This document shows, piece after piece, positions 19,794 to 60,752 of a stretch of 64,000 nt of DNA (position 1 is the stretch's first letter; each line of letters begins with the position of its first letter). The notes under the pieces are model-generated. The model was not told the origin of the DNA. It saw only the letters and a program-made list of their open reading frames with translations, and did no database searches. A program made the translations under genes and the position numbers. Source of the DNA: Nocardia asteroides (GTDB lineage: Bacteria > Actinomycetota > Actinomycetes > Mycobacteriales > Mycobacteriaceae); NCBI GenBank assembly GCA_019930625.1, contig CP082844.1, positions 992,001-1,056,000 on the forward strand, given 5' to 3'.

Positions 19794-21877
19794 GACCGCG
19801 CCCGCGCCCTCCCCACCCCGCGGCACACCCGGCTGTCCAGGCCCTTCGGGAAGCAATGCAGCCCCCGGACCCTCGACCCGGTAGACTGCGGGACGTCCCT
19901 GGTGGGCCCCGAGCCCACCATGCCTTCGTAGCTCAGGGGATAGAGCACCGCTCTCCTAAAGCGGGTGTCGCAGGTTCGAATCCTGCCGGGGGCACGAAGA
20001 ACATGGGCAACCGTAGTAGCGGTTTCCCATGGCGTGCCGGGTTGCCCCGTACCGCCGCCCCTGTGGGCTGGTGGCGGTACGGGCCCCGTTTCGGGGGTCG
20101 TAGCAGGGGTCAGCGGCGCGGCGGCCATGGCGGCATCTGGGAGTGTTTCTTCGGTCAGGGTGGCGTAGATGGTCACGTGCTTACCGGTGTGGTCGTAAAC
20201 GATCTTGATCCCGAATGCCTCGTACAAGTCACGTTGCAGGACATCGGGGGCCCGGGTGAGATGCAGCGTCAGCCGGGGCAGGTGGTCCAGGAGAGCGGGT
20301 TCGTCGGGGCGTTGCCGGGCGACCTGTTCACGCAGCGTCTCCAGCTCGGCATTCTTGGTCCGGCGTTCCTTTTCGAGTTCTGTGTAGCGGCGTCTCAGCC
20401 GTTCGGCCCAGGCTTGGGACAACTCGTCGTCGCCGGTGATGGGACGCGATTCCAGCTCGGCGAGCACGTTGTCCTGTCGTCGGGTGATGTCGGTGAGGGT
20501 CTTCTCGATCGCGGCGGCCCGCTGTTCGATGTCGTGGCCCTTGCTCGAGGACTGCCCGCGTAGCTGGTGGCGCAGCAGGGTCGCGCGGTCGGGGCCGAAG
20601 ATGCGTTCGTTGAAGAACGTCTCGACGCAGGCGAGGAGCTTGTCTTCGCGCACGTACACCGCGCGGGGGTGGTCGGCGTATTCCTCGGGTTTGCCGACGA
20701 GGTCGAGTTTGGGTTGGCAGGTGTAGTAGCCGTAGCCCTTGCGGGTCTTGCCGAACATCCGTTTGTTGCACTGCTGGTGGTGCACGAACGAGCGCAGTAC
20801 GTAGGTGCGGTGGGTGTCGGGGTGGGTGTTCTTCACGCTCATCCGCGACCCTTGGCGGGTGGTGCGGTTCTTCTGGACCGCGTCCCACACCGCGCGGGTG
20901 ACGAGGGGTTCGTGGGTGGGCTGCGGTGACCATACCCATTTCTCGGGCGGGACGAGCGCGCCGCCTTTCTTGCTGGCGCGCCGGTTCCACACCATGTGCC
21001 CGGTATATTTTGGGTTGATCAGGATTTCGCGGACCGAGGAACCTGACCAGCGGCCCCGGGCGCGTTTGCCGCTGTTGGGTTGCGGGGGCGGGTAGCGGTC
21101 GGGGTCGGCGTTGAGCCGGTCGGCGATCACCTGGTAGGCGAGGTTCTCGTCGTGGCGCAGCTGGAAGATCCGCACCACCGCCGGTGCGCGTTCTGGGTCC
21201 ACGAGGAGCCGGGACTTGGTGCGGCCTTCCTCTCGTTTCGCCGCGACCGGGTGCGGCACTTTCTCGTTGAGGTAGCCGTGGCAGGCTTTGCCGATGTTCC
21301 AGCCTTGAAAGGTGTGTTCGCGGAACCCTTCCCAGGATTGTTCGAGGGTGTGGCGCAAGAACCATTCGGCGACACCTTGTTTCATGCGGCGCACGAGGAT
21401 CTGGGTGGCGCGTTTCTCCGACAGCGAGATCGGGCCCTCGTCGGCGGCGAACAGCGGCACCCCGACTTTCTCCAGCTCGTGTTCGAGCTGGGTGGACTGG
21501 TGGGTCCAGCGGGCGGCGCGTTCGATCTCCTCGACCACGACCGCCTCGAAGCGGCGGTTGGGGTGGCGGGCTTCGGCCATCAGGTCGGCCAAACCGCCGT
21601 CACGCGGGATCGGGATGTCGAATGCCTCGTGCGCGCTGCCCAGACCACGCATCTCGAGATCCTTGCGGGAGGACTCGACGTCGTAGAAGAACGCGACGAT
21701 CACGAACCCGTTAGGCAGCACCTTGCGGCAGTTGTCGAGCTGGCGCGGCAGCGACAACGTGGGGTCCTGCAAATCCCGGGTCGAGGTGCGCAGGAACACC
21801 GCCACCGGGACCGGGGACGACCCACCCATCCCGAGCAGATCAGGGCTGTCGGGTCCGGCGAATGCGGGCAGGCTCAT
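19760..21877 (-). CDS. Large serine recombinase (integrase of the element)
   Basis: A 705-residue recombinase. The catalytic domain holds VAVFLRTSTRDLQDP with the nucleophile Ser at about residue 32, and conserved arginines (EIERAAR). The recombinase domain follows (YQVIADRLNADPDRYP; SSVREILINPKYTGHMVWNR). The zinc-ribbon-like part is weak, with only two cysteines (QQCNKRMFG; YYTCQPK). A coiled coil (EQRAAAIEKTLTDITRRQDN) lies near the end. The start at 21877 overlaps the stop of the 91-residue gene (ATGA). The frame passes antisense through the tRNA-Arg and about 160 bp of chromosome before stopping at 19760. The last 78 codons are therefore supplied by tRNA and flanking DNA, and the native C-terminus after excision would differ. 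Confidence 0.9.
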   Translation of the reverse strand: MSLPAFAGPDSPDLLGMGGSSPVPVAVFLRTSTRDLQDPTLSLPRQLDNCRKVLPNGFVIVAFFYDVESSRKDLEMRGLGSAHEAFDIPIPRDGGLADLMAEARHPNRRFEAVVVEEIERAARWTHQSTQLEHELEKVGVPLFAADEGPISLSEKRATQILVRRMKQGVAEWFLRHTLEQSWEGFREHTFQGWNIGKACHGYLNEKVPHPVAAKREEGRTKSRLLVDPERAPAVVRIFQLRHDENLAYQVIADRLNADPDRYPPPQPNSGKRARGRWSGSSVREILINPKYTGHMVWNRRASKKGGALVPPEKWVWSPQPTHEPLVTRAVWDAVQKNRTTRQGSRMSVKNTHPDTHRTYVLRSFVHHQQCNKRMFGKTRKGYGYYTCQPKLDLVGKPEEYADHPRAVYVREDKLLACVETFFNERIFGPDRATLLRHQLRGQSSSKGHDIEQRAAAIEKTLTDITRRQDNVLAELESRPITGDDELSQAWAERLRRRYTELEKERRTKNAELETLREQVARQRPDEPALLDHLPRLTLHLTRAPDVLQRDLYEAFGIKIVYDHTGKHVTIYATLTEETLPDAAMAAAPLTPATTPETGPVPPPAHRGGGTGQPGTPWETATTVAHVLRAPGRIRTCDTRFRRAVLYPLSYEGMVGSGPTRDVPQSTGSRVRGLHCFPKGLDSRVCRGVGRARARSQCGAGACASS
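19922..19994 (+). tRNA. tRNA-Arg (anticodon CCT)
   Basis: The cloverleaf can be drawn by hand: acceptor arm GCCTTCG with CGGGGGC (two G-U pairs) and discriminator A, D arm GCTC...GAGC, anticodon stem CCGCT/AGCGG with loop CTCCTAA (anticodon CCT), variable loop GTGTC, T arm GCAGG-TTCGAAT-CCTGC. CCA is not encoded. It marks the left boundary of the mobile element: everything beyond it is element-like, and the recombinase frame runs antisense through it. I found no second copy of its 3' end in the window, so the right boundary must lie beyond 64,000 if the tRNA is the attachment site. Confidence 0.93.
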
Positions 21878-22149
21878 GCCGCCTCCTGTTCGTCGGCGGT
21901 GGTGATGGCGTCGAGATCGACCAGCTCGGCTGTGGCTGGGTCGTGGCTGTCGAGCCAGCGCAGCAGCGCCGAGATCGCGCGGGCTTGCCGTTCGGCGACG
22001 CGTTTGGCTTCGGCTCCGGTGACATAGCGGATCTGGAACGACGTGGTCATCTCGCCCACTCGAGCATCGACATGCATCGGCGAATCGGCGCGGGCCCGCC
22101 AGGGGCGCAACGGGATCACCACGGCGTCGTCGGAAAATTCCTCGTCCAT
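21874..22149 (-). CDS. Small protein co-encoded with the recombinase
   Basis: A 91-residue acidic protein with a good ribosome binding site (AGAGGAAATC before the ATG) and a 4-base overlap with the recombinase start. Its centre reads as a helical segment (TGAEAKRVAERQARAISALL) and its end is acidic (ATAELVDLDAITTADEQ). I recognise no family. The translational coupling suggests an accessory role in integration or excision, such as a directionality factor. That is inference from position and size only. Confidence 0.7.
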   Translation of the reverse strand: MDEEFSDDAVVIPLRPWRARADSPMHVDARVGEMTTSFQIRYVTGAEAKRVAERQARAISALLRWLDSHDPATAELVDLDAITTADEQEAA

Positions 22150-22465
22150 GATTTCCTCTCATGTCCTGCCACGTCGGCCCGATAGGTGGCGGAGGTGGCT
22201 GTTTCGTGGGTGGGTCGAACTGCGCGGGAACCGGGCTGGGTCCGTGCAGCGGGGTCCATGAACGCTCCGTAGCGGCCGAGGCGTCAAATGTCTTCTCGTG
22301 CAGCATTTCTGCCGAACCGGTCACCCGCGACCAACCCGGGGTGCCGATCGGCCGGAATACGGCGGCCTGCGCCGTTCTGGCGGGTCGAACGGGCGGGTCT
22401 GCGGTGTGACCGTTGCACGCCGGAACCCGATCCCGATGCGGTGGTTCGGACAGCGGCGTCCAGGG
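22150..22465. other. Intergenic region, 316 bp
   Basis: Lies between the VirB4-like gene and the recombinase operon, all on the minus strand, and should carry the promoter of the recombinase operon. The recombinase frame extends into it upstream but reads as non-protein. No repeat or hairpin of note was seen. Confidence 0.5.
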
Positions 22466-25330
22466 TCACCCCGCCCACCTGCCGTCGGCTGTTGCGGTTG
22501 AGCCGATGTCGACTTCGGTGTCGCGGTCGTCGGCGATGGCGGCCAGGAACTCCGGCGAAGTGGTGATGAGCGCGTTCTCGGTGGGCGAGGCCAAAGACCC
22601 GAACACCGCGCGGTCGGTGCCGCCGACCGCGAGCAGCCCCGAACCGCGAGCCGCGGAGAGCAGGAATTGTTGCTCGCCGTCAGAGAGGTGGAAGGCGGTA
22701 GCGACCTCGTCGATGGCCTGGGGTGCTTGGCGGAGCAAGATCTGAGTGGCGGCGTTGGAGATGATCGCTCGCCCGAGTTCGGTCGAGCAGACATCCGCGC
22801 AGTCCTGGGTAGCGACGGTGAGTCCGGCCCAGTGCTTGCGGAAGCTCTTCGCGGCCCGGAACAGGAACGCCGCCCCGGCGGGCTCGCGCAGCAGCAGCCA
22901 TGCCTCGTCCACGGTGATCATGCGGGGCCGCCGATGACCGGGGTTCGACACTTTCCGCCACGTCGCGTCCAAAACCAGCAGCGTGCCGATGGTTTTCATT
23001 TCATCGGGCAGCTCCCGTAGCGAGAACACGATCATCGCGCCCTCGGGTTCGGTGGTGGTGGGTCCGTCGATCAGCCCGGCATAGGCTCCCTCGCCGGTGT
23101 AGGGGTGCAGCCCGGCAGCCAACTCGACGGCAGCGGGCACGGCGAGCTGGTCGAGCTGGTCTCGCAGGTCGCTCAGGGTGGGCGCGGGCCGGGTCCAGGT
23201 GGCGGGGTCGTCGGTGATCCCGGCGGCGGTGTAAGCAGCGGCGAGAGCAGCGTCCAGCGCCGACCGTTGCGCGGCGGTTTGGTCCCCCAACAGCACCTGG
23301 ATCAGGGTGTGGCAGAACAGTTTGCGCCGAGTGAGCGCATCGGTCGGGGCGCTGCGGCTCCCGTCGGGTCGGGTGTGGATTTCCAGGTCGAACGGGTTGA
23401 GCCGAACTCCGGGTGCACCGAGGCGGATGTTGGTGCCGCCCACGGCCTCGCTCAGGCGCCGGTATTCGTCTTCGGGGTCGATGATGACCTGTTCGACCCC
23501 GCGATACAGCGCTCGCAGGATCTCGGTTTTCACCAGGTAGGACTTGCCTGCACCGGAGCGGCCGAGAACGACGAGGTTGTGGTTGTGGGCCTCGGGACCG
23601 AACCGGTCCACGAACAACAACCCCGACGCGGCGTCGCGGCCATAGAGAACACCCTGGGGCCGGTCGGCCTGGGCGGGTTCGGCGGCGGGGAGCTGGGGTG
23701 AGTCGAAGGGGAACGCCGCGGCGAGGGCAGTGGTATCGAAGGTCCGCTGGACCCGGATCAGGTCCAACCCGAGCGGCAGAGTCGTCACCCACGCCTGAGC
23801 TGCCCGGTAGGACAGGGTGCAGGTGTCCACGAGCAGACTCGCCGCCAACGCGCGAACGGCGGCCAACTCGTCGGCCAGCTCGGATTCCGAGGCGGCATGG
23901 ACGGTGAGATACACCCCGACGCGGAACAGCCTGGCTTCGGCCCGCGCGACGCGCGCGGACAGGTCGGCGGCGTCCTCGACGGCGACGTCGACCTGCGGGT
24001 CGGTCAGACGGCCTCGGCCGAGGTCCTGCCTGCGGGCGGATTCGAGGCGGGCTTGCTGGCGGCGCAGCCGGGTCGCGGCGGTGGCCGGGTCGACCGGCTC
24101 GACGTGCACCGCGACCTCGACTCTGCCCGGGTGAGACAGCAGAGGCGCGAGCCAGCCGGCCGTCACCTCGCGCGGGTAGCCGGTTACCGCGAGGGTCGCA
24201 CTCCAATCCGAGCCGATCTCGAGGTGCCGGGTGCCGATGGTCAGAGATTCCGGGGCGAACCGGTCGAGCCCGTCCCCGGCGAACGGATCCGGTAATCGGG
24301 TATTGGGGTCGGTGCTGACGACCGTGTCGGCGGCGGTGATGTCGGCGGCGGCAGAGACGAGGCTTTCGGGGTCGGTGCAACTGGCCAGCACGGCGGTCGC
24401 GGCGTCGTGGGCGAGGGCGGTCACCGAGATCCCCAGCGGGGACAGCACATCGGCGGCCTCGTTCATCCGGCGCAGCAGCCTGGACTCGGCCGCCCGGCGC
24501 GCACCGCCCGATAGGGTGCGCCGGGCTCGGCGCTGCCCAGGGAGACGGGCACGCAGCCCGCTGGTCGCCACGGCCTCGGTGTGTTCACGCCAGACGAGCA
24601 GCACCTGTCGGTGGACGGGGTCTTCGCGGGCGGCCAGCGCGGTGAGGTGGTCGGCGTGGTCGAGGGCTGCCGCGGCGAGGTCGGCCGACATCTGCGCGGC
24701 GGCCGTTTGCAGGCCGGTGATGTGCTCGGTCAAGTCCAGCCGCGCCGAACGGATCAGGATCTGGACGGGTTGACGCAGGGTGTGCAGCCAGCCCGCGAGC
24801 TGGCCGACCAAGCTGTCCTGTTCGGTCGGGGTCCGCAGCGACAGGTTGAGGGTTCCGGCGACGGCGATGGCGGCGAGGCCGTCGGCGCCGAGGTCGATCA
24901 CCCCGACCTCGCCGCTGCCACTGCTCGCCACCGACTCGGGCAACCGCGCCTGATCTGCCGATAGTTCCGAGGGCACCGGCGACCGAGGACGTCGTCCTGT
25001 GGTGCGCGTCGTGATCCAGTGCGGAGCCCGGGTGGCACCATGTGATCGGATGAGGTGGCGTGGACGCAGGCGGTGATGAACGGCCGCGACGAGCAGCAGG
25101 TCGGCCGACAGGCCCTCGCGGCGTGTCAGGACCGCGACTGCCACGAACACGAACATCAGGGCAGCGGTGACCGCGAATACGGGCAGCGGTAGCAGGGTTC
25201 GCGTTGCAGCCCAGGCCGCGTACAGCAGTGCCGCGGTCGTGGCCAGGACAGCGAGCTGGCGCGCGGTGAACGGCCCCAGCAGCCGATCGGAGCGGTCGAC
25301 GTCGGCGGGGATGCGCACGATGGTATTCAT
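22466..25330 (-). CDS. VirB4-type conjugation ATPase with N-terminal PrgI-like membrane domain
   Basis: A 954-residue fusion. Residues 1-100 are PrgI-like: VRIPADVDRSDRLLGPFTAR, then two membrane segments (ATTAALLYAAWAA; FAVTAALMFVFVAVAVL). The rest is a VirB4/TraE-type ATPase that powers DNA or subunit transfer through the type IV channel. Walker A is LGRSGAGKSYLVK (about 590), the Walker B-like segment is MITVDEAWLLL (about 806), and there is an arginine-rich late motif (ILLRQAPQAIDEV). The PrgI-VirB4 arrangement is usual in Gram-positive conjugative elements. It overlaps the VirB6-like gene by 4 bases and is the last gene of the leftward transfer operon. Confidence 0.93.
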   Translation of the reverse strand: MNTIVRIPADVDRSDRLLGPFTARQLAVLATTAALLYAAWAATRTLLPLPVFAVTAALMFVFVAVAVLTRREGLSADLLLVAAVHHRLRPRHLIRSHGATRAPHWITTRTTGRRPRSPVPSELSADQARLPESVASSGSGEVGVIDLGADGLAAIAVAGTLNLSLRTPTEQDSLVGQLAGWLHTLRQPVQILIRSARLDLTEHITGLQTAAAQMSADLAAAALDHADHLTALAAREDPVHRQVLLVWREHTEAVATSGLRARLPGQRRARRTLSGGARRAAESRLLRRMNEAADVLSPLGISVTALAHDAATAVLASCTDPESLVSAAADITAADTVVSTDPNTRLPDPFAGDGLDRFAPESLTIGTRHLEIGSDWSATLAVTGYPREVTAGWLAPLLSHPGRVEVAVHVEPVDPATAATRLRRQQARLESARRQDLGRGRLTDPQVDVAVEDAADLSARVARAEARLFRVGVYLTVHAASESELADELAAVRALAASLLVDTCTLSYRAAQAWVTTLPLGLDLIRVQRTFDTTALAAAFPFDSPQLPAAEPAQADRPQGVLYGRDAASGLLFVDRFGPEAHNHNLVVLGRSGAGKSYLVKTEILRALYRGVEQVIIDPEDEYRRLSEAVGGTNIRLGAPGVRLNPFDLEIHTRPDGSRSAPTDALTRRKLFCHTLIQVLLGDQTAAQRSALDAALAAAYTAAGITDDPATWTRPAPTLSDLRDQLDQLAVPAAVELAAGLHPYTGEGAYAGLIDGPTTTEPEGAMIVFSLRELPDEMKTIGTLLVLDATWRKVSNPGHRRPRMITVDEAWLLLREPAGAAFLFRAAKSFRKHWAGLTVATQDCADVCSTELGRAIISNAATQILLRQAPQAIDEVATAFHLSDGEQQFLLSAARGSGLLAVGGTDRAVFGSLASPTENALITTSPEFLAAIADDRDTEVDIGSTATADGRWAG

Positions 25331-27201
25331 TTCAGGGTTCCGCCTCTCGGGGCGCGGGGCGCTCGGCGGCGCACGGGCAGATCCGGCATGGGCAGATGCA
25401 GCTGCCGCCCCGCCGGACGCGCCGGGGCCGCTGCGGGTGGTTGTAGCGGGTTCGGCGGCGGTGCAACGGGCTTGACCCGGGCGACCGGGAACGGCAGCGG
25501 GTACTGGCCGCTACGGTTCGGGCGCACACGCGCGTACGGGTCGGGCGGGGTGGGTTCGGTGAAGTCGAAGGCGAGCTGTTGCGGTGTCGCGCGGCGACCG
25601 GGCCGCTGCGGCGGCGGCTCGGGTGGCGGGGGTGTTGGACGGACACGGCGCACCGGGATCGGGAGCGGGTACTGTCCCCCAGCCCCGGCGCGGATGCCCC
25701 GATACGGGTCCGGTGGAGTGAAGTCGAACGCGAGCTGGCGTCCCCTCGCCGACCGGTTCGAGCGCGGTGGTGGGGTGCCGGTCGCTTGGGCCGGTGCCGG
25801 GTTGGGTTGCCGAGGAACGCGGCGCACTCCTTCCAAGGGCAGCATGAGCTGCCCGTCGCGGCTCGAACGCACCCGCGCGTACGGATCGGGCGGTCCACTG
25901 CTGGAGGCGGCGCGGGGTGCTCGTGAGGCACGGACGGGTCGCGCACTCCGCCGTGCGGATGCCGCCGAGGCTGTGGTGCGGGCGCTGCTCGCAGTGGCGC
26001 CTTTGAGCATGCCGAGGGTTTTGTAGGCGATGAATCCGCGCACGATCGAGCCGAGGAAGCTGCGGCCTTGCCCGATCTTGAGCACCGACAGCAGCCACAT
26101 CGGTGTCTTGATCAACACGAACATCAACGCCAAAGCGACAGTGAGGTCGGCGATCTCGTTGGCATCGGGCCCGAACACGTACCAGCCACCGGGACGGAGC
26201 ATGACCCGCAGCACGGTCACCAACGTCAGTGATTGCACCACCTGGACTGCGAGGCAGGCGGCGAAGCTGCGCCACCACCAGCGGGCGACACCGTCGAGGC
26301 CGGGCAGCCCATGACACATCAAAGCCAGGGGTGCGCCCACGATCAGCAAGATCGTGATCGTCACCCGCACGAGGTAGCTGATGATCAGCACGAGCAGCAT
26401 CACCGACAGCGCCAGCTGCAACAGAACGAGGACACCGAGGCTCTGGGTACTGGTGAACGCCAACTCGGCCAGCGCGTCGGCGGCCGAGCCCGAGTCGACA
26501 CCATCTCCAGCGAGAGCACCGGCGAGGGCGTTGGCGAAACCGATTCCGGCGGTGGCGATCATCATGCTCAACCCCCCAGTCGCGAATCCGACGACCAGGC
26601 GGGGTGCGAGTTCGCGGATCGACCATTGGGTTTGGACGGTCTCACGCATCATCAACAGCACCCCGGCAGCCATCACGACCAGCACGTAGAGGGCGAGCAC
26701 GATCTGCCACGACTGGTTCCACAAGACCCCGATCTCGGGAATCTGCCCGGGTTCGGGTGTGGTGAGCAGGGTTTGCGACAACAGTTCCAGCAACGGGTTG
26801 AGCGAGGTCTCCACGATGCGCCGGAAGAACCCGTCGACCGCGTTCTCCACACACCCGTTGATGTTGGTCACCCCGCACTCGGCCGAGCCCGACCCGGATC
26901 CAGGTGCCGGTGCTGGCGCTGTTGTGCCGGGCGCGGTTGTCGTCGGTGGGGCGGTGGTCGAGGGTGGTGTCACCCACCGGCGCGGTGTCGTGGTCGGTGG
27001 ACTGGTGGTCGGCGCGGGTGTCGCCGGTGCCGTGGTCACCGGCGGAACCGGCGTCGGAGTGGCGGGTTGGGCGGCGGCCCCGCCGGAACCGGTGAGCACG
27101 ATCAGGACGGCGGCGAGGACCGCTGCTGCGCTAATGGCAGCGAGGCGCGCGGCCGGTGTGAACCGGGTGGGGGTGGGTGGTGCCTGGGCCGAGGTGCTCA
27201 C
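25327..27201 (-). CDS. VirB6/TrbL-like conjugation channel membrane protein with repeat tail
   Basis: A 624-residue protein starting at GTG 27201, 2 bp after the upstream stop. It has an N-terminal signal/membrane segment (LAAISAAAVLAAVLIVLTGS), a Thr/Pro-rich external stretch, six or seven hydrophobic helices between about residues 160 and 400 (for example IVLALYVLVVMAAGVLLMM), and a cytosolic tail of about 200 residues. This layout fits the VirB6/TrbL family that forms the inner-membrane part of the secretion channel. The tail carries three copies of a DPYxxxR...G-Q-hydrophobic-P repeat and two copies of LAFDFT-P, with Pro/Arg-rich spacers. Neighbours encode VirB4 and a VirB2-like protein. 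Confidence 0.88.
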   Translation of the reverse strand: MSTSAQAPPTPTRFTPAARLAAISAAAVLAAVLIVLTGSGGAAAQPATPTPVPPVTTAPATPAPTTSPPTTTPRRWVTPPSTTAPPTTTAPGTTAPAPAPGSGSGSAECGVTNINGCVENAVDGFFRRIVETSLNPLLELLSQTLLTTPEPGQIPEIGVLWNQSWQIVLALYVLVVMAAGVLLMMRETVQTQWSIRELAPRLVVGFATGGLSMMIATAGIGFANALAGALAGDGVDSGSAADALAELAFTSTQSLGVLVLLQLALSVMLLVLIISYLVRVTITILLIVGAPLALMCHGLPGLDGVARWWWRSFAACLAVQVVQSLTLVTVLRVMLRPGGWYVFGPDANEIADLTVALALMFVLIKTPMWLLSVLKIGQGRSFLGSIVRGFIAYKTLGMLKGATASSARTTASAASARRSARPVRASRAPRAASSSGPPDPYARVRSSRDGQLMLPLEGVRRVPRQPNPAPAQATGTPPPRSNRSARGRQLAFDFTPPDPYRGIRAGAGGQYPLPIPVRRVRPTPPPPEPPPQRPGRRATPQQLAFDFTEPTPPDPYARVRPNRSGQYPLPFPVARVKPVAPPPNPLQPPAAAPARPAGRQLHLPMPDLPVRRRAPRAPRGGTLK

Positions 27202-27203
27202 GG

Positions 27204-27602
27204 TCAGGCTCCGATGATGGACTTGAGCACGGCGACGATGACCGGTGCCAGCATCGCCAGCGCGTAGCCGATGCACGCGGCGCGGAAGGCGGTCTTGGCC
27301 TTCTCGATCTCGCTGGGATCACCGCCCCCGAGCAGATAGCGGGCTCCTGCGATGGTCAGGAACAGTGTCGCCAGCCCGGCCAGGATGCCGACCAGCCAGT
27401 TGCGGGCGTTGTCGATCACCTCGCCCAGCGACGAGGCGATGGCCAGCACCTCGGTGTGCGGTGGCGCCGCCGAGGCGGATCCGGCCGCGACCACCGACAC
27501 CACCACGGCGGCGACCGCGATAGCGAGGCGCCGGGGCCAGCGTCGTGCGCGGCCAGCCGAGTCCTGTACGGCCCCATCGAGAGCGTTCGTGTGCGGGTTC
27601 AT
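27204..27602 (-). CDS. VirB2/TrbC-like small membrane protein (pilin-type)
   Basis: A 132-residue protein with a basic start, a signal-like segment (LAIAVAAVVVSVVAAGSASA) and two further hydrophobic helices (WLVGILAGLATLFLTIAGAR; ACIGYALAMLAPVIVAVLK) split by a charged loop. Size and two-helix topology after the signal match VirB2/TrbC-like subunits of Gram-positive transfer systems. The loop GGGDPSEIEKAKTAFR is common in such proteins. It overlaps the preceding gene by 4 bases and sits 2 bp before the VirB6-like gene. In monoderm bacteria a pilus is not expected, so a channel subunit is the safer description. Confidence 0.85.
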   Translation of the reverse strand: MNPHTNALDGAVQDSAGRARRWPRRLAIAVAAVVVSVVAAGSASAAPPHTEVLAIASSLGEVIDNARNWLVGILAGLATLFLTIAGARYLLGGGDPSEIEKAKTAFRAACIGYALAMLAPVIVAVLKSIIGA

Positions 27603-28522
27603 GCGGCCACCCGCCCGGACTCGATGCGTGCCGGTGCCGGAGCTGACGAGAGCCGTTTCGGCCGGCGGCCTCGCCGCGGTGAGGAGACCCTCGGCGCGAG
27701 CGTGGTCACCGTCGCGGTCTCGACCGGGCCGTTGCGGACCGGGTCGAGGTCGCGGGTGCGGTCGGCCAGCCATACCAGTAGGGCACGTTCGGCACGGGAC
27801 CGCTGCTTGCGCAGTCGGCCCACAGGGACACCGCGCTCGGCGGCCAGACCGGGCAGCAGCCGGTCTTCCCACCGGGACGCGGCGATGAGTTCTGCGGCGT
27901 CGGCGGAGATCACCCCGGCACCCACGGCAGCAGCGAGCACCGTCTCGGGGTGACCCGACTCGGCTCCGAGTACCTGCGCCCGCTGCCCCCATTCGGTGAG
28001 GCCAGCTCCGAGGTCGCCGACCACCGTGAAATTGGTTCGCTGCTCGATTGCTGTTTTACGGTCAGCGCGGAAGGCAGCCCACCGTAGGCGATTCCATACG
28101 TGCGGCTGGTCAACATCGATGCACGGGAGGTGGAGCAGGAACTCAGCCAGCGCTTCGGACTCGGCATCGTGGCGCTCCGGGCTTCCCGGTGCCGTGTGCT
28201 CGCCGGTGATACGGGCCAGCATCGGCACGGCCAGCGCCGCGCTCACGAGCATTGCGGACTCGCAGCGCTGCCGGACCCGTTCGATGAGCCACACCCAGAT
28301 CGCATCGACCTCGGTCATCGGCGTGCCTGGATCCCACAGCCGCTCACGCAACTCTCCCCACGTCCGGATCCGACCGCAACCGGCCTCCGACACCGGGACC
28401 GGACGGGGGATGGTCGGCAGGTAGTGTCCGGCGATCCGGTCGAAACCCCTGTTCACCGCAGCCAGTGGCGAGGGCCGTTTGCCGATCTGTCCCGGAATGG
28501 TTTCGTCATGCGTGTTCGTCAC
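27599..28522 (-). CDS. Sigma-factor-like / HTH protein heading the transfer operon
   Basis: A 307-residue soluble protein. GTG at 28522 is chosen for its AAGGAG six bases upstream. Two parts recall sigma factors: VWNRLRWAAFRADRKTAIEQ, like a region-2 helix, and a C-terminal AAELIAASRWEDRLLPGLAA followed by ERGVPVGRLRKQRSRAERAL, like a region-4 HTH. The similarity is weak, so a promoter-recognition role is inference. It is the first gene of the leftward operon (this gene, VirB2-like, VirB6-like, VirB4-like), directly downstream of the TATCC repeat array. A regulator acting on that array is an attractive possibility. Confidence 0.75.
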   Translation of the reverse strand: MTNTHDETIPGQIGKRPSPLAAVNRGFDRIAGHYLPTIPRPVPVSEAGCGRIRTWGELRERLWDPGTPMTEVDAIWVWLIERVRQRCESAMLVSAALAVPMLARITGEHTAPGSPERHDAESEALAEFLLHLPCIDVDQPHVWNRLRWAAFRADRKTAIEQRTNFTVVGDLGAGLTEWGQRAQVLGAESGHPETVLAAAVGAGVISADAAELIAASRWEDRLLPGLAAERGVPVGRLRKQRSRAERALLVWLADRTRDLDPVRNGPVETATVTTLAPRVSSPRRGRRPKRLSSAPAPARIESGRVAA

Positions 28523-28579
28523 CACGATCTCCTTGTTCGGTCGATAGTTTTCCGACCACATCAGGACACCTCGCGGATC

Positions 28580-28656
28580 TATCCGAAACCTATCCAAACC
28601 CTATCCGCAACATATCCAAACACTATCTGAAACATATCCAAGTCATATCTTGCGCA
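28580..28656 (+). repeat. Left array: seven 11-bp repeats, TATCC family
   Basis: TATCC or TATCT starts at 28580, 28591, 28602, 28613, 28624, 28635 and 28646, exactly 11 bp apart each time. The units read close to TATCCRAAACM, for example TATCCGAAACC, TATCCAAACAC and TATCTGAAACA. One unit per helical turn places all copies on the same DNA face, as in iterons or cooperative binding sites. The first copies lie 58 bp upstream of the sigma-like gene. Confidence 0.9.
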
Positions 28657-28790
28657 GATCAGCATCCCCTCCGCTACTACGACACACCCACCCGTCGGGG
28701 GCACGGCATATCCGCGCGGATATACCCATCTACCAGCACATGTGAAGCGCAGGATAGCGCCAGGATATGACTTGGATATGTTTCAGATAG
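28623..28790. repeat. Perfect 27-bp inverted repeat bracketing a 114-bp core
   Basis: The 27 bases at 28623-28649 recur as the exact reverse complement at 28764-28790, covering units 5 and 6 of the left array plus the start of unit 7. Exact conservation over 27 bp, against drift among the other units, suggests recent duplication or strong selection. The enclosed core contains the palindrome at 28708-28723. Confidence 0.9.
28708..28723. promoter_or_regulatory. 16-bp palindrome ATATCCGCGCGGATAT
   Basis: A perfect palindrome made of one TATCC and one GGATA half-site, centred between the two oppositely oriented repeat arrays. The same 16 bp, extended to 18, occurs at 51009-51026. This suggests a dimeric element-encoded regulator that recognises both loci. 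Confidence 0.8.
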
Positions 28791-28800
28791 GTTCCGGATA
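28746..28800 (-). repeat. Right array: five inverted 11-bp repeats, GGATA family
   Basis: GGATA or AGATA at 28752, 28763, 28774, 28785 and 28796, again exactly 11 bp apart, in the orientation opposite to the left array. An AT-rich stretch follows (28830-28960, with runs such as TTCAAAAAAATTCCC). Arrays facing each other beside AT-rich DNA are typical of origins and partition sites. The divergent transfer operons also make this their shared control region. Confidence 0.88.
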
Positions 28801-29000
28801 GGCATCCGAGCACGCTGGCAAACCGTGGTGAAAATTCTTCAAAAAAATTCCCGGGACATCTCATCGATGCACCCGTTTTCTAGGTCCGGATATCGGGCTC
28901 AGGAAATTCTCAGAGAGCGGAGTTCGGAAATTACGTCCCGTTTTCGGCTTTTTGGCGGCAGTTAATGAGTAGAAGCACTCTCTCGTTCAGGAGGCCCCTC

Positions 29001-29645
29001 ATGACTGCCCCTTCCCGCCGCCCGCGCTCTGGCACCAATGCCGTGCAGATCCCCTCGACCTTGTGGCCGCTGGGACCCGACCCGCTCGATCCCGCCGATC
29101 GCTGGCCCGACCGGGCTCTGGTCCACACGATCACCGAATTCTCCGCGCCGGGCGCGCGGGTGATGCTGCTGGGCTGGCCCGCCCCCACCGCGCGGGGGAC
29201 GCTGCGGATCATCGAGTCCGACACCGCCGCCGCACTGTCGACGATCGGGGATCTGGGCCGCCACGGACTCGACGCACCCGCCGGCCGGACGTGGACAGGC
29301 GCGCCGGTGGATCTGGTCGTCGCGAGCCTGCTCGCCGATCAGCTCGACCCGATCGCCGCCGCCGAACACATCACTGCGCTCGCGACCGACGTCCTCGCGA
29401 TGGGCGGGTTGCTGGTCGTTTTCTCCCGTTGCCGACACAGCGACTCCGGAACCTTGTTCGACCCGGCCGGTTCGGTCGTGGCCGCCGCGCAGTCCGCCGA
29501 TCTGCTCTACCTCCAGCACATCATCGCCGCCCCGATCTCCGGGCACCGGATCACCGCGCCCGCCTCGCCGACGCCCTCGAGCACCGCGCGCCACACGGTC
29601 GCGCACACCGACGTCTTCGTCTTCCTCCAGCCCGCCCATGGCTGA
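29001..29645 (+). CDS. Methyltransferase-partner protein of unknown function
   Basis: A 214-residue protein with ATG at 29001 behind a perfect AGGAGG seven bases upstream. The sequence reads like a Rossmann-type fold related to class I methyltransferases: GARVMLLGWPAPTARGTL, VDLVVASLLADQL, LAMGGLLVVFSRCR. It has no clear SAM-binding glycine motif or catalytic PPY. It overlaps or immediately precedes the DNA methylase gene, so it may act with it, for example as a specificity or regulatory partner. It is the first gene of the rightward transfer operon, opposite the sigma-like gene across the repeat arrays. Confidence 0.7.
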   Translation: MTAPSRRPRSGTNAVQIPSTLWPLGPDPLDPADRWPDRALVHTITEFSAPGARVMLLGWPAPTARGTLRIIESDTAAALSTIGDLGRHGLDAPAGRTWTGAPVDLVVASLLADQLDPIAAAEHITALATDVLAMGGLLVVFSRCRHSDSGTLFDPAGSVVAAAQSADLLYLQHIIAAPISGHRITAPASPTPSSTARHTVAHTDVFVFLQPAHG

Positions 29646-29694
29646 ACCCACACGCCCTGTACCCGACCGGAACTCTCACGTGAAGGACGCCCGA

Positions 29695-30708
29695 ATGTCG
29701 CTCGAACCGACCACCCCCGCCTCCGCCGACAGCGCCTCCGGCAGCCCCGCACAGACCGCCCCGGCCGTCGCGCCGGTGTCGGTGTGGGCCACCGCGCAGA
29801 CCGCGCCCACCGCCCAGCGGCGGGGCCGCTACCACCCCGACAGCACCGCCCACCCGGCGAAGATGTTCCCCGCCATCGTCGCCCACGCCGTGAACACCTA
29901 CACCCAGCCCGGGGACCTCGTCCTGGACCCGATGTGTGGAATCGGCACCACCCTGGTCGAGTCCCTGCATTTGGGTCGCCGCGCGGTCGGGGTGGAGTAC
30001 GAGAGCCGGTGGGCGGAGCTGGCGCGCACCAACATCGAGCTCGCCCGCGAGGCCGGGATCGATCTCGCCGCGGACGTCTTCCACGGCGACGCCCGCAAGC
30101 TGGGAGAGCTGATCCCGGCCGAGCTACGCGGCCAGGCGAAGTTGGTCATCACTTCCCCGCCCTACGGCGATTCTCTGCACGGGCATGTGCGCGCCAACCG
30201 CAAAGACCCGGTAGTAAAGAAGAACCACCGCTATGGCCAGCTACTGGACCGAGGCAATTTGGCCAACGTCGGCCTCGGCCGCCTGCTGTCGGGATTCACG
30301 AAGATCCTGGCCGGGGCCGCCGACTACCTCGCTCCCGGCGGGTATGTGGTGATCACCGCCCGGCCGTGGCGTCAGCACGCCGAACTCGTGCCGCTGCCCG
30401 CCCACCTCTACACCTGCGGCGAGCTGGCCGGGCTGGTGCCGGTGGAGCGGTGCGTGGCGCTGCTCGGGCGTCTCACCGAGGGCGAACTCGTCGCCCGGTC
30501 GAGCTTCTTCCAGCGCGACTTCATCGTCAAGCAGCGCGCGGCAGGGCTGCCGATGCACCTCATCGCCCACGAGGACGTCATCATCCTGCGCAAGCCCGAA
30601 GCCACCGAGGCGACCGAACGCCGCCGCGCGGCAGGCCGGTTCCCGTTCGGCAGCGCGGCGACACTGCCGAGTGCCGATAGCACCGGCTCGGGATCGGTGG
30701 CCGCGTGA
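29695..30708 (+). CDS. DNA methyltransferase (N4-cytosine/N6-adenine type)
   Basis: A 337-residue class I methyltransferase. The SAM-binding motif is LDPMCGIGTTLVESLHLGRR, with acidic ribose contact VGVEYESRW, and the catalytic motif is SPPYGDSLHGH. In this permuted group the catalytic SPPY follows the SAM motif. No restriction enzyme gene lies nearby, so it is an orphan methylase that may protect the element during transfer or mark its own sites. The ATG at 29695 has GAAGGA at a good distance; an ATG at 29638 overlapping the previous gene is possible. Its stop overlaps the GTG of the coupling-protein gene. Confidence 0.88.
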   Translation: MSLEPTTPASADSASGSPAQTAPAVAPVSVWATAQTAPTAQRRGRYHPDSTAHPAKMFPAIVAHAVNTYTQPGDLVLDPMCGIGTTLVESLHLGRRAVGVEYESRWAELARTNIELAREAGIDLAADVFHGDARKLGELIPAELRGQAKLVITSPPYGDSLHGHVRANRKDPVVKKNHRYGQLLDRGNLANVGLGRLLSGFTKILAGAADYLAPGGYVVITARPWRQHAELVPLPAHLYTCGELAGLVPVERCVALLGRLTEGELVARSSFFQRDFIVKQRAAGLPMHLIAHEDVIILRKPEATEATERRRAAGRFPFGSAATLPSADSTGSGSVAA

Positions 30709-33158
30709 ATCCCGAGCAGGGATGGCTGGGCCGGGCGCTTCTCGCGCCCGGCCGGGCCGTGGCCGACCTCCGCGAATCCCTCGAACACGCCCTCGTGTCC
30801 ACCGATGCCCTGTTCCTGGTGGTGGCTGGTGTCGCGGTGCTCGCCGCGGTCGGGCTCGTGGGCCGGTGGCGGCGAGGCCGGCTGAGTGCGCGTGCCCGTC
30901 AGATCACCGTGCTCACCCCACCGGAGGTCGATGCCAAAGGCGCACTCTCCTTCTGGGCCCACCTCATCGGCCAGCTCCGCCCCGCGTGGGCGAGGACGCT
31001 GTTGGGGCAGCCGCATCTGGGGTTCGAGTACACCGTCACCCCCGAAGAGGGCGCGGCGATCCGGTTGTGGGTGCCCGGCGCGATCCCACCCGGGCTGATC
31101 GAGCGGGCCGTCGCCTCGGCGTGGCCCGGCGCGCACACCGACACCCTTGAGCCCGCTCGTCCGCCACTGCCGAACCCGGTCAAGGGAATCCGGCGGGTCG
31201 TGGCCGGAGGCGAGCTGCGTCTCGGGCGCCACGAGGGGCTCCCGTTGAGCACCGAGCATTCCGGTGATCTGGTGCGCAACCTGATCACCGCCGCCGACGA
31301 TCTGGGCCCCGGCCACGCCGTGTGTGTGCAGATCCTCGCCCGCCCGGTCACCGGCCGCCGCGTCGCCCGAGCCACCCGCTCCGCGGCGAGCACGGGTACC
31401 CGGGCCGGTGTCGCGGCCGGACTACTGTGCCAGGCCCTCGACCTCCTCACACCCGGCTCGAACAGCGCTCGCACCTCCCGCGCTACCGCCGGGGCAGGAA
31501 CCGGCCGGGCCAGCGACCGGCAGACCTCCCTCGAATACAGCGCCGCCGCCCGCGCGGCGGCGGCCAAAGCGCGAGGGGCGCACTGGGAAACGGTCGTGCG
31601 CTATGCCGCCTCGATCCCGGTCTCCACCGACCCCGCCGAGATCGACTCGACAGCGGCAGCGCGGGCGGTGGCGCGCGGGCGCGCCGATGCGCTCGCCACG
31701 ACATTCGGGGCGTGCACCGATCACAACTACTACCGGCGTCGCCGTCGCCCTTTGCGCCTTCAGCGGTTGATCCGGGAGCGGCGTCTCGGGCGTGGGGATG
31801 TGTTGTCGGTGCCGGAGCTGGCCACGATCGCCCATCTGCCCACCGAAGACGGGCTACCGGGACTGCAGCGTGCCGGAGCCCGCGCTCTGTCCCCGGCCCC
31901 GGAGATCCCCGTCGGTGGGGAACACACGAAGCCGTTGGGGATGTCGGACACCGGCACTCGCCGCCCGGTCGCGGTCAAAGTCAGCGACGCCCGCCACCAC
32001 CTGCACATTCTCGGTCCCACCGGCGTCGGCAAATCCACGCTGCTGGCGCGCACGATCCTCGATGACGCCGAGGCCGGGCGCGGGGTGATCGTCATCGACC
32101 CGAAGGGCGACCTGGTCACCGATGTCTTGTCGCGGCTGCCGTCGCGCATGGGTGAGCGGGTAGTGCTCTTCGACGCCGACGCTTCCAGTGCTCCGCCGTG
32201 TGTGAATCCGCTCGACATCGGCCGGATCGGGCGCGCCGGAATGGATCTCGCGGTCGACAACCTGACCACGGTGTTCCGCCGGATCTTTCACCAGTGGTGG
32301 GGGCCGCGCACCGACGACATCATGCGCGCGAGCCTGCTGACGTTATGCGCCCAACCCGGCACCGCCACCCTGGCCGACCTGCCCCGTCTGCTCACCGAGT
32401 CCGCCTTCCGTTCCCGGGTCACCCGCACCACCACCGATCCGGTCCTGCGCGGGTTCTGGGACTCCTATGAACAGCTCTCCGACACCGGGCGTGCCCAGCT
32501 CACCGGCCCGCTACTGAACAAACTGCGCGCCTTTTTGCTGCGCCCGTTCGTCCGCGCGGCCATCGCCGGTGGCCCGTCGACCGTGGACTTCGGCGATGTC
32601 CTCGACCACGGCGGCATCTGCCTCGCGCGGTTGCCGAAGGGCTCACTCGGCGAGGAAACCTCACGGCTGGTCGGGTCACTGCTGGTCGCCCGGACCTGGC
32701 AGGCGGTGACCGCCAGGGCCCGGGTGCCCGCCGCCGACCGGCCTGACGCCGCGCTCGTGCTCGACGAGGCACAGAACTTCCTCAACCTGAGCACGCCGAT
32801 CGAGGACATGCTCGCCGAAGCCCGCGGACTCCGGCTCTCTCTGCTGCTGGCGCATCAGAACTTGGGTCAGCTCTCGCGCGAACTGCGCGACGGTATCTCG
32901 GCGAATGCGCGCAACAAGATCGTCTTCGCCGTGTCCCCCGATGACGCGCGCGATCTGGCCCGGCATACCGACCCGTGGCTGTCCGAGCACGACCTGTCCC
33001 ATCTCGACGCCTTTCACGCTGCCGCGCGGCTGTTGGTCGACGGCCGCAACGCCCGCCCCTTCACCCTCACCACCCGCCCCCTGGACCCACCGATCCCCGG
33101 ACGCGCCCGCGAGATCTCCGCCGCCGCACGCGCCCACATCACCGCACCCGGCCCCTGA
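30705..33158 (+). CDS. TraD/TraG-like type IV coupling protein
   Basis: An 817-residue inner-membrane ATPase that would bring the DNA substrate to the transfer channel. One membrane segment (FLVVAGVAVLAAVGLVG, about residues 37-53), a long Arg-rich extension to about residue 400, then the ATPase: Walker A HILGPTGVGKSTLLAR (about 437) with GVIVIDPKGDLV, and Walker B ALVLDEAQNFLNL (about 684). LLLAHQNLGQL and NARNKIVFAVS are typical late motifs of this class. It starts at GTG 30705, overlapping the methylase stop by 4 bases, so it is translationally coupled. Confidence 0.93.
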   Translation: MNPEQGWLGRALLAPGRAVADLRESLEHALVSTDALFLVVAGVAVLAAVGLVGRWRRGRLSARARQITVLTPPEVDAKGALSFWAHLIGQLRPAWARTLLGQPHLGFEYTVTPEEGAAIRLWVPGAIPPGLIERAVASAWPGAHTDTLEPARPPLPNPVKGIRRVVAGGELRLGRHEGLPLSTEHSGDLVRNLITAADDLGPGHAVCVQILARPVTGRRVARATRSAASTGTRAGVAAGLLCQALDLLTPGSNSARTSRATAGAGTGRASDRQTSLEYSAAARAAAAKARGAHWETVVRYAASIPVSTDPAEIDSTAAARAVARGRADALATTFGACTDHNYYRRRRRPLRLQRLIRERRLGRGDVLSVPELATIAHLPTEDGLPGLQRAGARALSPAPEIPVGGEHTKPLGMSDTGTRRPVAVKVSDARHHLHILGPTGVGKSTLLARTILDDAEAGRGVIVIDPKGDLVTDVLSRLPSRMGERVVLFDADASSAPPCVNPLDIGRIGRAGMDLAVDNLTTVFRRIFHQWWGPRTDDIMRASLLTLCAQPGTATLADLPRLLTESAFRSRVTRTTTDPVLRGFWDSYEQLSDTGRAQLTGPLLNKLRAFLLRPFVRAAIAGGPSTVDFGDVLDHGGICLARLPKGSLGEETSRLVGSLLVARTWQAVTARARVPAADRPDAALVLDEAQNFLNLSTPIEDMLAEARGLRLSLLLAHQNLGQLSRELRDGISANARNKIVFAVSPDDARDLARHTDPWLSEHDLSHLDAFHAAARLLVDGRNARPFTLTTRPLDPPIPGRAREISAAARAHITAPGP

Positions 33159-33237: not shown

Positions 33238-34272
33238 GTGCCACCGATGCTTTCCCGCCCCGCCCAGCAGGCCGACAACCGCCGACCCCGCCCCGACAAC
33301 CGGACCAGGCCCCGCCCCCTCGATCCCACCGCGCTCGTCTCCCGGCTGACCGAGCGCGACCGCTGGATCCTGCGCATGCTCTACGAACACCGCGTCTTGA
33401 CCACCAACCAGCTCACCGACCTGGCCTTCCCCACCCAGCCCATCGCCCTGCGACGGCTCAACCTGCTCCACCGCTACGGCGTCCTCGAACGGTTCCGCCC
33501 CTGGCGCGCCCGAGGCAGCGCGCCAATGCACTGGGTGCTCGCACCGGCCGGAGCCGGCGTCCTCGCCGCCGAAGCCGGAATCACGGTGCGCGAGCTTGGC
33601 TACCAGTACCAGCGCGCGCTCGCCATCGGGCACAGCCTGCACCTGACCCACACCCTCGGCGTTGTCGAGTGGTTCACCGCCCTGATCGCCCACCCCGCCC
33701 TCGATCAGCGTGGCGACCCCGCCCAAGTCCTGGCGTGGTGGTCCCAGACCCGCTGCGAGCGCCTGTGGGGAGACCTCGCCCGTCCCGACGCTTGGGGCCG
33801 CTACCGCCACGCCGAAGCCGTGCTCGACTTCTACCTCGAATACGACCTCGAATCCACCACGGCGCTGTCGCGGGTCGCGGCCAAGCTCACCGGCTACGCC
33901 GAGCTGGCGCGCACCACCGGCGTCGTCGCCCCCGTCCTGCTGTGGGTGCCTAGTAGCGCCCGCGAGACCAAAGCCCGTGCCGCGCTGCACCGAACATGGG
34001 AACGGCTGCCCGACCCCGAGGCAGTGCCGGTGGCCACCGCCGCCGCCGAACTCCTGGCCCCCACCCACGAGGCGAGCCCCGCCGACCAGGTCTGGCTACC
34101 ACTGGAGACCGACACCGACCGCAGGTCGCATCTGCACCAGCTGGCCACCATGTGGCCCCGGCGCACCCCGCCCGCCGCCGACAGCGAACTCGACCCCGGC
34201 TGGGTATCCCAGAGCGGCGTCGTCGCCTTGCCCCCACCCGCACCCCGGCCACCGACCTACGAGTCCTGGTGA
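33238..34272 (+). CDS. Replication-relaxation family protein
   Basis: A 344-residue protein matching the family found on actinobacterial plasmids and conjugative elements. The N-terminal winged helix is LTERDRWILRMLYEHRVLTT, then LAFPTQPIALRRLNLLHRYG. The middle reads QYQRALAIGHSLHLTHTLGV, and a later acidic/aromatic segment YRHAEAVLDFYLEYDLESTT resembles the nuclease-fold part of the family. The name comes from plasmid Rep/relaxation genes; biochemical activity is not established. It may stand in for the relaxase or its accessory, since no ordinary relaxase is visible. GTG 33238 and ATG 33247 are both possible starts (AAAGG lies 3 and 12 bp upstream, respectively). Confidence 0.85.
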   Translation: MPPMLSRPAQQADNRRPRPDNRTRPRPLDPTALVSRLTERDRWILRMLYEHRVLTTNQLTDLAFPTQPIALRRLNLLHRYGVLERFRPWRARGSAPMHWVLAPAGAGVLAAEAGITVRELGYQYQRALAIGHSLHLTHTLGVVEWFTALIAHPALDQRGDPAQVLAWWSQTRCERLWGDLARPDAWGRYRHAEAVLDFYLEYDLESTTALSRVAAKLTGYAELARTTGVVAPVLLWVPSSARETKARAALHRTWERLPDPEAVPVATAAAELLAPTHEASPADQVWLPLETDTDRRSHLHQLATMWPRRTPPAADSELDPGWVSQSGVVALPPPAPRPPTYESW

Positions 34273-59867: not shown

Positions 59868-60752
59868 TTAGGCGATCGGGTGCCATCCCGACCACGGTCG
59901 TGGGCCATAGGTGCCGCGTAGGCAGTCAACTCGATGTTGCGCTTGAGCAGCGTGGTTAGCCTTCGTTCCTGCTGCTTGGGCCGCCATACAGGTCATCCGC
60001 AGCTCGCGAATGTCTCTCAACAGTGAGAAGCCCTCCCAAGTCGTGACGTCGTGGCCGTATGCGTCACAGAAGGCACGGTAGCGTTCGGCCGAGATCCAGC
60101 CGAAGGAGCTTTGTTTGATCGCGGTAGAGACGAGGTCCCACTCGGGTGGGCCGACCGAGGCTCGCTCGAGGTCGAGGAACGTGGTCACTCCGGCGTCGGT
60201 GGTGACCACGTTGCCTTCCCAGGCGTCGCCGTGGATCGGTGACCACGGCATGCCGGTGGGCAAATTTTCCCAGCCTGCGCGCAGGTCCGCGAGCCGCTGG
60301 TACAGCCACTGCCGATCTGCGTGGCTCAGCGATGACGCGCTGTCGATGCGCTGCTCGAGCCGGACGAACGGTTGGACTTCGGGCAGGAACGGCGGCGCGG
60401 CCAGCTGGTGCAAGGCGCGCAGCGCCCTCCCGATCTCGTGCTCGCTGCCGTTGTGGTGCGGCGGCAGCTCTTTCCACAGAGTCACCGGCCGCGAGTCGAT
60501 CACCGCAAAGTCGGCGCGAGTGCCCATCGGCTGCACAGCCGAAATATGCTGTTCTCGAAGCCATTCCGCGATATCCACCTCGCGGCGTGCAGCTTCGGTC
60601 TGGCCCGCCCGCGCAACGCGGATGACCATGTGTTGATCAGGTACTCGGAAGATCGCATTCTCCGCGAGTTTGATCGGGACCATCCCGTCTGGGTCGACGC
60701 CAGCATCTGCGCATGCCGTGCGAGCGATACGTTCGACCTGCGAGGTGTTCAT
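59868..60752 (-). CDS. Aminoglycoside-phosphotransferase-fold kinase
   Basis: A 294-residue APH/choline-kinase-like protein. Brenner motif SPIHGDAWEGNVV holds the catalytic Asp (about residue 174) and Asn; the metal-binding motif is TTFLDLERASVGPPEWDL. The ATP-binding N-lobe is short (IKLAENAIFRVPDQHMVIRV). Such kinases act on aminoglycosides, but also on many metabolites. Its 4-base overlap with the upstream HTH gene suggests a regulatory or conditional role rather than a resistance gene cassette. The substrate cannot be named. Confidence 0.87.
   Translation of the reverse strand: MNTSQVERIARTACADAGVDPDGMVPIKLAENAIFRVPDQHMVIRVARAGQTEAARREVDIAEWLREQHISAVQPMGTRADFAVIDSRPVTLWKELPPHHNGSEHEIGRALRALHQLAAPPFLPEVQPFVRLEQRIDSASSLSHADRQWLYQRLADLRAGWENLPTGMPWSPIHGDAWEGNVVTTDAGVTTFLDLERASVGPPEWDLVSTAIKQSSFGWISAERYRAFCDAYGHDVTTWEGFSLLRDIRELRMTCMAAQAAGTKANHAAQAQHRVDCLRGTYGPRPWSGWHPIA

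Follow-up and report, generated by a model that had tools for sequence, protein, structure and literature searches.

A candidate SARP-type operator of seven and five facing 11-bp units between the divergent transfer operons of a Nocardia conjugative element

We analyzed a stretch of 64,000 nucleotides from Nocardia asteroides (contig CP082844.1, positions 992,001 to 1,056,000), here called the window, whose own coordinates are used throughout. The host genome comprises 7.4 Mb in two contigs. The window carries an integrated conjugative element with a serine recombinase beside a tRNA-Arg, a VirB4-type ATPase and a type IV coupling protein. An array of short repeats (28579-28800) lies in the intergenic region of two divergent type IV secretion operons, so that a previous reading of the sequence alone was right on both sides in placing the site between divergent transfer operons. 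The features relevant here are the following.

19760..22324, minus strand: large serine recombinase (family search) at the left end of the element; its open frame overlaps the tRNA-Arg (19922-19995)
22466..25330, minus strand: PrgI and VirB4-type ATPase (family search)
25327..27276, minus strand: polytopic membrane protein, called VirB6-like by position only (inferred name, no Pfam match)
27204..27992, minus strand: T4SS pilin open reading frame; the true gene is probably shorter because the pilin domain sits at residues 187-256
27599..28522, minus strand: sigma-like protein of 307 aa, first gene of the leftward operon, with predicted folds resembling sigma region 2 and region 4
28563..28571, minus strand: conserved box (GGACA on the plus strand, TGTCC on the minus strand) plus the -10-like hexamer AGGTGT, from locus comparison
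28579..28655, plus strand: left arm, seven 11-bp units TATCC/T-R-AAAC-N (sequence, positions, repeat search)
28708..28723, no strand: perfect 16-bp palindrome of the same half-sites, ATATCCGCGCGGATAT (sequence check)
28728..28744, plus strand: inter-arm core ATCTACCAGCACATGTG (motif count across loci)
28746..28800, minus strand: right arm, five inverted 11-bp units (sequence, positions)
about 28830..28860, no strand: AT-rich stretch to the right of the right arm (sequence)
28934..28940, plus strand: CGTCCCG at a distance of about 134 bp from the right arm, counterpart of the TGTCC box on that side
29001..29645, plus strand: protein of 214 aa, first gene of the rightward operon, no family match
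29638..30708, plus strand: DNA methyltransferase-like protein (family search)
30705..33158, plus strand: VirD4/TraG-type coupling protein (family search)
33238..34272, plus strand: Replic_Relax protein (PF13814; family search)
51335..53119, minus strand: protein of 594 aa with a MinD/ParA-like N-terminal domain (degenerate P-loop) and a SARP domain (winged HTH and BTAD)

A search at the element ends detected neither att repeats nor the right end; a serine integrase may leave just a short att core. A phosphotransferase gene of the APH family (59868-60752) is located close to the likely right end. The same genome harbors a second copy of the element at 6.639 Mb, which is collinear with the window from 22508 to about 59761 and shows 67-90% identity in the main blocks. 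Its array follows the same design, with some units decayed, and the right-hand counterpart of the TGTCC box reads GTGTCCCG. This second copy adjoins a tRNA-Pro and carries a different integrase gene; the same transfer backbone is thus combined with two integrases, the serine recombinase by tRNA-Arg and one that, judged by eye, looks tyrosine-type. Within both copies, a block of about 7.5 kb with homologues of TnsA, TnsB, TnsC (TniB) and TniQ (34.6-42.2 kb of the window) is 100% identical, while its flanks are 80-94% identical. By sequence, this block looks like a Tn7-like transposon that occupies one and the same site in the two elements, or else like the product of recent gene conversion. The alignment between the copies is broken at 43.4-45.9 kb of the window, a low-complexity, repeat-rich part beside a cutinase-like gene.

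The sequence-only reading had described seven plus five phased 11-bp units, a perfect 16-bp palindrome between them, a perfect inverted copy of 27 bp and AT-rich DNA after the array, and all four descriptions were borne out. On the plus strand, TATCC/TATCT units start at 28580, 28591, 28602, 28613, 28624, 28635 and 28646 (n = 7), and units of the opposite orientation (GGATA/AGATA) start at 28752, 28763, 28774, 28785 and 28796 (n = 5), with a spacing of 11 bp in both arms. Positions 28623-28649 are the reverse complement of 28764-28790, and the repeat search yielded broader inverted arms of 40 nt with 88% complementarity. The two-unit pattern TATCY-N6-TATCY matched ten times in the window, every time inside the array, against a mean expectation of 0.01 per window (100 dinucleotide shuffles). 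An Rfam search of 28300-29200 gave no structured RNA match near the gathering score.

To place the array in a wider context, we used the 307-aa sigma-like protein, which had 67 matches in 44 of 150 Nocardia genomes. A total of 62 of these matches were examined as loci (60 relatives and two in the window genome); the five unused ones were G153:C48:56439, G130:C16, G004:C198, G170:C238 and G153:C19, the first four of which resemble L108 and L109 by score and frame length. In L108, L109 and L132, the sigma-like gene lies inside a longer open frame (519 aa; 479 aa in L132) with an extra C-terminal region, and the coupling-protein gene, where found, is on the other side. Using a motif-free scan for period 11 with a cut above the 99th percentile of shuffles, we found an array in 61 of the 62 loci, just upstream of the sigma-like gene and within 330 bp of it. 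The median score at period 11 was 27.7 as compared to 0.7 in shuffles, whereas seven other periods (8-10 and 12-15) passed in 0 to 11 of the 62 loci. None of the control coding stretches, two per locus, scored above 8 at period 11. The earlier reading had proposed to search related elements for the phased repeats and had named their absence as a refutation of its inference; with an array in 61 of the 62 loci, this check did not refute it. Across the intergenic region from the sigma-like gene, all 62 loci have the 214-aa gene and, after it, the methyltransferase gene. The methyltransferase-like protein might modify the DNA of the array or of the core.

The wide occurrence of the array also bears on the Tns genes, whose homologues (TnsA, TnsB, TnsC, TniQ) start about 6.5 kb to the right of it and could suggest that the units are TnsB-type end repeats of a nearby Tn7-like transposon. 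tnsA and tnsB were matched in just 2 of the 62 loci in the stretches examined, namely in both copies of the window genome, and the array lies about 6 kb outside the block identical between these copies. TnsB ends were rejected, given that arrays are present at loci without Tns genes in the examined stretch, and we assign this explanation practically no probability.

The sequence of the unit varies between elements and includes TATCC, CACCC, CTCTCC, CCTCC and others. Right arms could be fitted independently (score above 6) in 48 of the 62 loci and were inverted in 47 of these 48. In the 48 loci, the right arm resembled the left arm of its own element more than the left arms of other elements (permutation p = 0.0005). 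These comparisons indicate that both arms of an element share one unit and change in concert. The palindrome, in the form ATATCCGNNCGGATA, occurred in 11 of the 62 loci including that of the window, all of them with mainly TATCC arrays; it is not a general feature of the arrays.

A different behavior was seen for the core. In 38 of the 62 loci, the motif CTACC[A/T]G lies between the arms or close to them and was kept while the units changed; none of 62 coding stretches of the same length contained it. For this reason, the region could be an origin of transfer alongside its role as an operator, with arms that organise the relaxosome and a nick site in the inter-arm core. The location between transfer operons, the adjoining AT-rich DNA and the Replic_Relax protein encoded in the rightward operon fit this reading, which the earlier reading had also named. 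Neither a nic site nor a catalytic relaxase was identified in the element, however, the core was present in just 1 of 41 loci outside the genus, and the rigid coupling of the left arm to the adjacent box (see below) is better explained by transcription control. In our estimation, an oriT function is rather unlikely.

To the left of the array, the GGACA box was located in 52 of the 62 loci and, in 47 of these 52, stood in one fixed phase to the units. This phase was constant although the unit sequence changes between elements. In the window, the -10-like hexamer AGGTGT (28566-28571, minus strand) lies 8 bp from the outermost left unit. Of the 62 loci, 46 have a hexamer ending in TGT at this distance from the last left unit, a count that is not independent of the phase result, as the box containing TGT was used to place the unit. 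At the right arm, which was placed without a guiding box, a TGT hexamer at the matching distance was found in 0 of 47 loci.

This geometry resembles that of SARP operators. At the targets of AfsR (afsS) and PimR (pimM), direct repeats with a period of 11 bp line one helix face and are bound cooperatively by proteins with a winged HTH and BTAD, and the last repeat lies about 8 bp from a weak -10 element (PMC5930380, PMC10936776). For afsS, repeats 11 bp apart, the last of them 8 bp from the -10 element CACTGT, are reported (PMC10936776), and the AfsR box has the consensus CGTTYATCGNN (PMC10972967). Our frame aligning the units with the AfsR box was chosen after the AfsR publication was known. 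The previous claim that no described actinobacterial element has this geometry was too strong, because direct repeats of 11 bp are the classical form of a SARP operator (PMC5930380, PMC10936776). In contrast to the two to three repeats described in those accounts, the array has seven plus five in facing arms around a core. What is unusual is how many units there are and that the arms face each other; operators of this kind are already known. A further difference is that the SARP considered here is encoded on a conjugative element and has a MinD-like domain fused to it.

A candidate binder is encoded by the element itself, 23 kb from the array. The protein at 51335-53119 scored 42.4 bits for BTAD (cut-off 22.1) and 24 bits for Trans_reg_C, just under the cut-off of 26.2. 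A Foldseek search with its structural model retrieved AfsR (E = 5 × 10−9) as well as EmbR and MinD-type ATPases, and a profile match to AfsR was obtained at 1.8 × 10−5. By these matches, the protein has the layout of a SARP of the AfsR/EmbR family, with a winged HTH followed by BTAD.

We next compared single alignment columns with array class. Of the 37 loci with YAYCC arrays, 25 (15 TATCC and 10 CACCC/CATCC) were scanned, as 11 had no unambiguous or retrieved SARP partner and L098 lacked one of the genes. Near-identical loci were kept (L073, L074 and L075 are alike) and broken SARP copies were excluded. With a limit of at most four residue types, 2 of the 591 SARP columns split TATCC from CACCC/CATCC arrays without error in the 25 loci, and none of the 3,411 columns of six other proteins of the element did so. 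The column count alone corresponds to a Fisher p of 0.02, and the residue had been noticed by eye before the scan was run. Under a looser limit, the best four columns of each protein included further, more variable error-free ones, two in the SARP, one in the VirB6-like protein (5 letters including the gap) and one in the sigma-like protein (8 letters).

The two SARP columns correspond to residues 415 and 423, both within a helix of the model (410-429). Residue 415 is A or S with TATCC arrays and T with CACCC/CATCC arrays; outside the scan, L098 combines the residue T with an array of the C class, in agreement. L104, with 0.56 T and the residue A, and L095, with 0.40 T and the residue T, were borderline. 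Residues 415 and 423 align opposite R87 and K95 of AfsR, which are described as touching DNA phosphates, not bases, beside the base-reading T88 and R92 (PMC10936776). By this alignment and the model, the two residues are placed in the recognition helix of the SARP. Because their SARP partners were ambiguous, nine loci from five multi-copy genomes did not enter the scan. G130 and G061 each have one A and one T SARP together with one TATCC and one CACCC array, and G090 has A and S SARPs with two TATCC arrays, all in agreement; G102 also agrees for its likely pair, L103 having a CACCC array and the probable SARP partner a T, and G072 is mixed. The clearest case is the recombinant locus L091. Its transfer proteins are 81-93% identical to those of the window, but its array is CACCC, as in L101. 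The DNA-binding domain of its SARP shows 70% identity to that of the window and 91% to that of L101, indicating that array class follows the SARP gene here.

The sequence-only reading had instead named the sigma-like protein (27599-28522) as a candidate binder. In this alternative, the protein would contact the units through its region-4-like HTH and autoregulate both operons, the SARP acting elsewhere or through it. This protein was also our first favored binder. The gene adjoins the array at all 62 loci, which were themselves found through it. By predicted fold, the protein has the sigma region 2 and region 4 folds of an ECF-like factor, its region 4 matching those of sigmaE and SigR, while a profile search against PDB sequences gave a best E value of 0.42. 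On whole-protein distances, its divergence tracked array distance best (0.754 over 48 loci, as compared to 0.64-0.73 for others). After removal of near-identical loci (56 to 48 and 37 to 33 for the two Mantel sets), the values over 33 loci were 0.649 (that is, 0.65) for the sigma-like protein, 0.64 for VirB4 and 0.63 for the VirB6-like protein, with the SARP domain lowest of the proteins compared (0.51). When the SARP domain and five other proteins were controlled for, the correlation of the sigma-like protein was still significant (0.195, p = 0.01), whereas the SARP domain added nothing once the sigma-like protein was given (partial Mantel 0.03, p = 0.32). Among 97 close-backbone pairs, which are not independent of each other, the rank correlation was -0.64 for the sigma-like protein and -0.13 for VirB4; four other proteins had values from -0.36 to -0.47.

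At the level of residues, the picture is reversed. None of 328 sigma-like columns with at most four residue types predicts array class. The sigma-like proteins of L087 and L089 are 86% identical, yet their arrays are CACCC and TATCC, and L091 groups with TATCC elements on the sigma-like tree, yet has CACCC. Tandem 11-bp binding is documented for SARPs, and we know of none for sigma region 4. Trees gave three changes of array class for the SARP, the 214-aa protein, the methyltransferase and the coupling protein, and four for the sigma-like protein, VirB4 and the VirB6-like protein; with three against four, trees alone decide nothing and do not single out the SARP. In these sequence comparisons, residue-level evidence favors the SARP and whole-protein distance favors the sigma-like protein. 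Because of the column scan and the recombinant L091, the sigma-like protein was demoted; of the earlier proposal, the sigma-like nature (by predicted fold) and the support from whole-protein distances are retained. Direct binding by this protein appears somewhat unlikely but is still the chief alternative to the SARP.

Outside the genus, 41 loci were analyzed (40 of the 72 matches listed and one Streptomyces locus), of which 16 passed the same period-11 test. When whole loci were scanned, 15 of 21 had their best period-11 match at a distance of 24-93 bp from the start of the gene; these were the Streptomyces locus and 14 of the 20 loci of family f14. In 20 loci of families f15, f12, f5 and f7, no array exceeded the threshold of 8.7 at the expected place (best 8.5, in L196), and a few period-11 scores of 9-10 elsewhere in these loci had no control. 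Relatives in these four families have the sigma-like gene while an array above threshold is absent there. SARP-domain matches were found in 7 of 7 genomes searched from these families; in 4 genomes, the distance to the sigma-like gene was 20-32 kb. For f14, 14 of 19 loci checked had a SARP-domain match on the same contig 9-31 kb away; for the others, it was at 54 kb (one locus), on another contig (three) or absent (one). In f14 genomes such as G369, G285 and G258, MinD-like and SARP matches are separate and about 8 kb apart, which suggests that the protein of the window is a fusion of two proteins working together.

The MinD/ParA-like domain of the SARP protein also raises the question of a partition or replication site, i.e. 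parC-like iterons or an iteron oriV, both of which had been suggested before. In plasmid R1, parC has 11-bp iterons in two groups, and the arrays of R1 parC and of the omega operator-centromere consist of groups of short repeats serving as operator and centromere. Unlike in those systems, no ParM/ParR or omega partner occurs in the open reading frames scanned, and the MinD-like domain is degenerate. The P-loop window of this domain has no lysine in 70 of 71 aligned proteins. Partition is unlikely for this reason, and type I (ParA) partition was rejected on the deviant Walker A lysines, a lysine being present in that window in 1 of 71. A Pfam search of a subset of window open reading frames gave no replication initiator, actin-like or ribbon-helix-helix protein. 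Furthermore, a sigma-like homologue was detected in just 1 of 72,556 plasmid records, with 30% identity, which makes an autonomous replicon unlikely and led us to reject plasmid iterons. Neither the oriV nor the partition idea thus found support, and we regard this alternative as very improbable.

Taken together, we consider it probable from the sequence comparisons that the array is an extended SARP-type operator, bound by the element's own MinD-like/SARP protein and controlling transfer. The comparisons establish its geometry, its conservation, the concerted change of the arms, the phasing of box and array and the covariation with the recognition helix of the SARP, whereas we infer that the protein binds and activates and what the right arm does. 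Along a single face of the DNA, the protein encoded at 51335-53119 would occupy the 11-bp units head to tail, seven to the left and five mirrored to the right. The left arm, at fixed phase and 8 bp from the -10-like box, would act upstream of the leftward operon, which comprises the genes for the sigma-like protein, the pilin, the VirB6-like protein and VirB4. A bound row of SARP molecules would recruit RNA polymerase and activate these transfer genes, in the manner of AfsR at afsS. Relative to the rightward operon (methyltransferase, coupling protein), the right arm has the same orientation but no such box at that distance, and it would more likely act from afar or by bringing both arms together. 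The sigma-like protein may be the partner of the SARP, which would explain its divergence in parallel with the array. The array is most likely a master operator and probably a master switch of transfer. Cooperative binding on one face and a master operator, both put forward in the sequence-only reading, are its best-supported ideas given the SARP-operator geometry and the covariation with the recognition helix, and that reading as a whole is partly supported. A more elaborate version, to which we attach a low probability, would have the MinD-SARP and the sigma-like protein as a pair whose joint assembly bridges both arms and switches both operons, with the core as transfer origin and the unit code insulating co-resident elements from each other.

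Similar arrangements are known from other regulators. Streptomyces BldC forms a head-to-tail filament at smeA-sffA on repeats one helical turn apart (PMC5859096, PMC11963761); the sites described for this MerR-like protein differ in having 9 bp, and no such gene was among the window open reading frames scanned. RdfS of ICEMlSymR7A is likewise an oligomeric HTH regulator controlling an ICE, but in the account given it lacks an apparent consensus motif and acts on excision at attP (PMC11963761). T4SS-type ICEs of Actinobacteria share the integrase, the VirB4-like protein and the coupling protein with the present element, whereas the survey, in the part available, covers MOBF relaxases only and does not describe a control array (PMC3218068). 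Our literature search on SARPs in conjugative elements returned no publication on such an array or protein, and descriptions of the array size, the facing arms, the conjugative setting, the MinD-SARP fusion or the regulation of T4SS-type conjugative elements in Actinomycetes were not found in it.

The analysis offers a concrete candidate for the master switch, together with its likely binding protein, common to dozens of elements. The series of arrays forms a natural set of paired protein and DNA specificities, with a one-residue hypothesis (A/S versus T) for the difference between classes. SARPs are known mostly as activators of antibiotic clusters, and ActII-ORF4 and RedD also have SARP operators. 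If the proposed reading is true, the row of seven plus five units would be an extreme case of a SARP operator, showing SARPs at work in conjugation.
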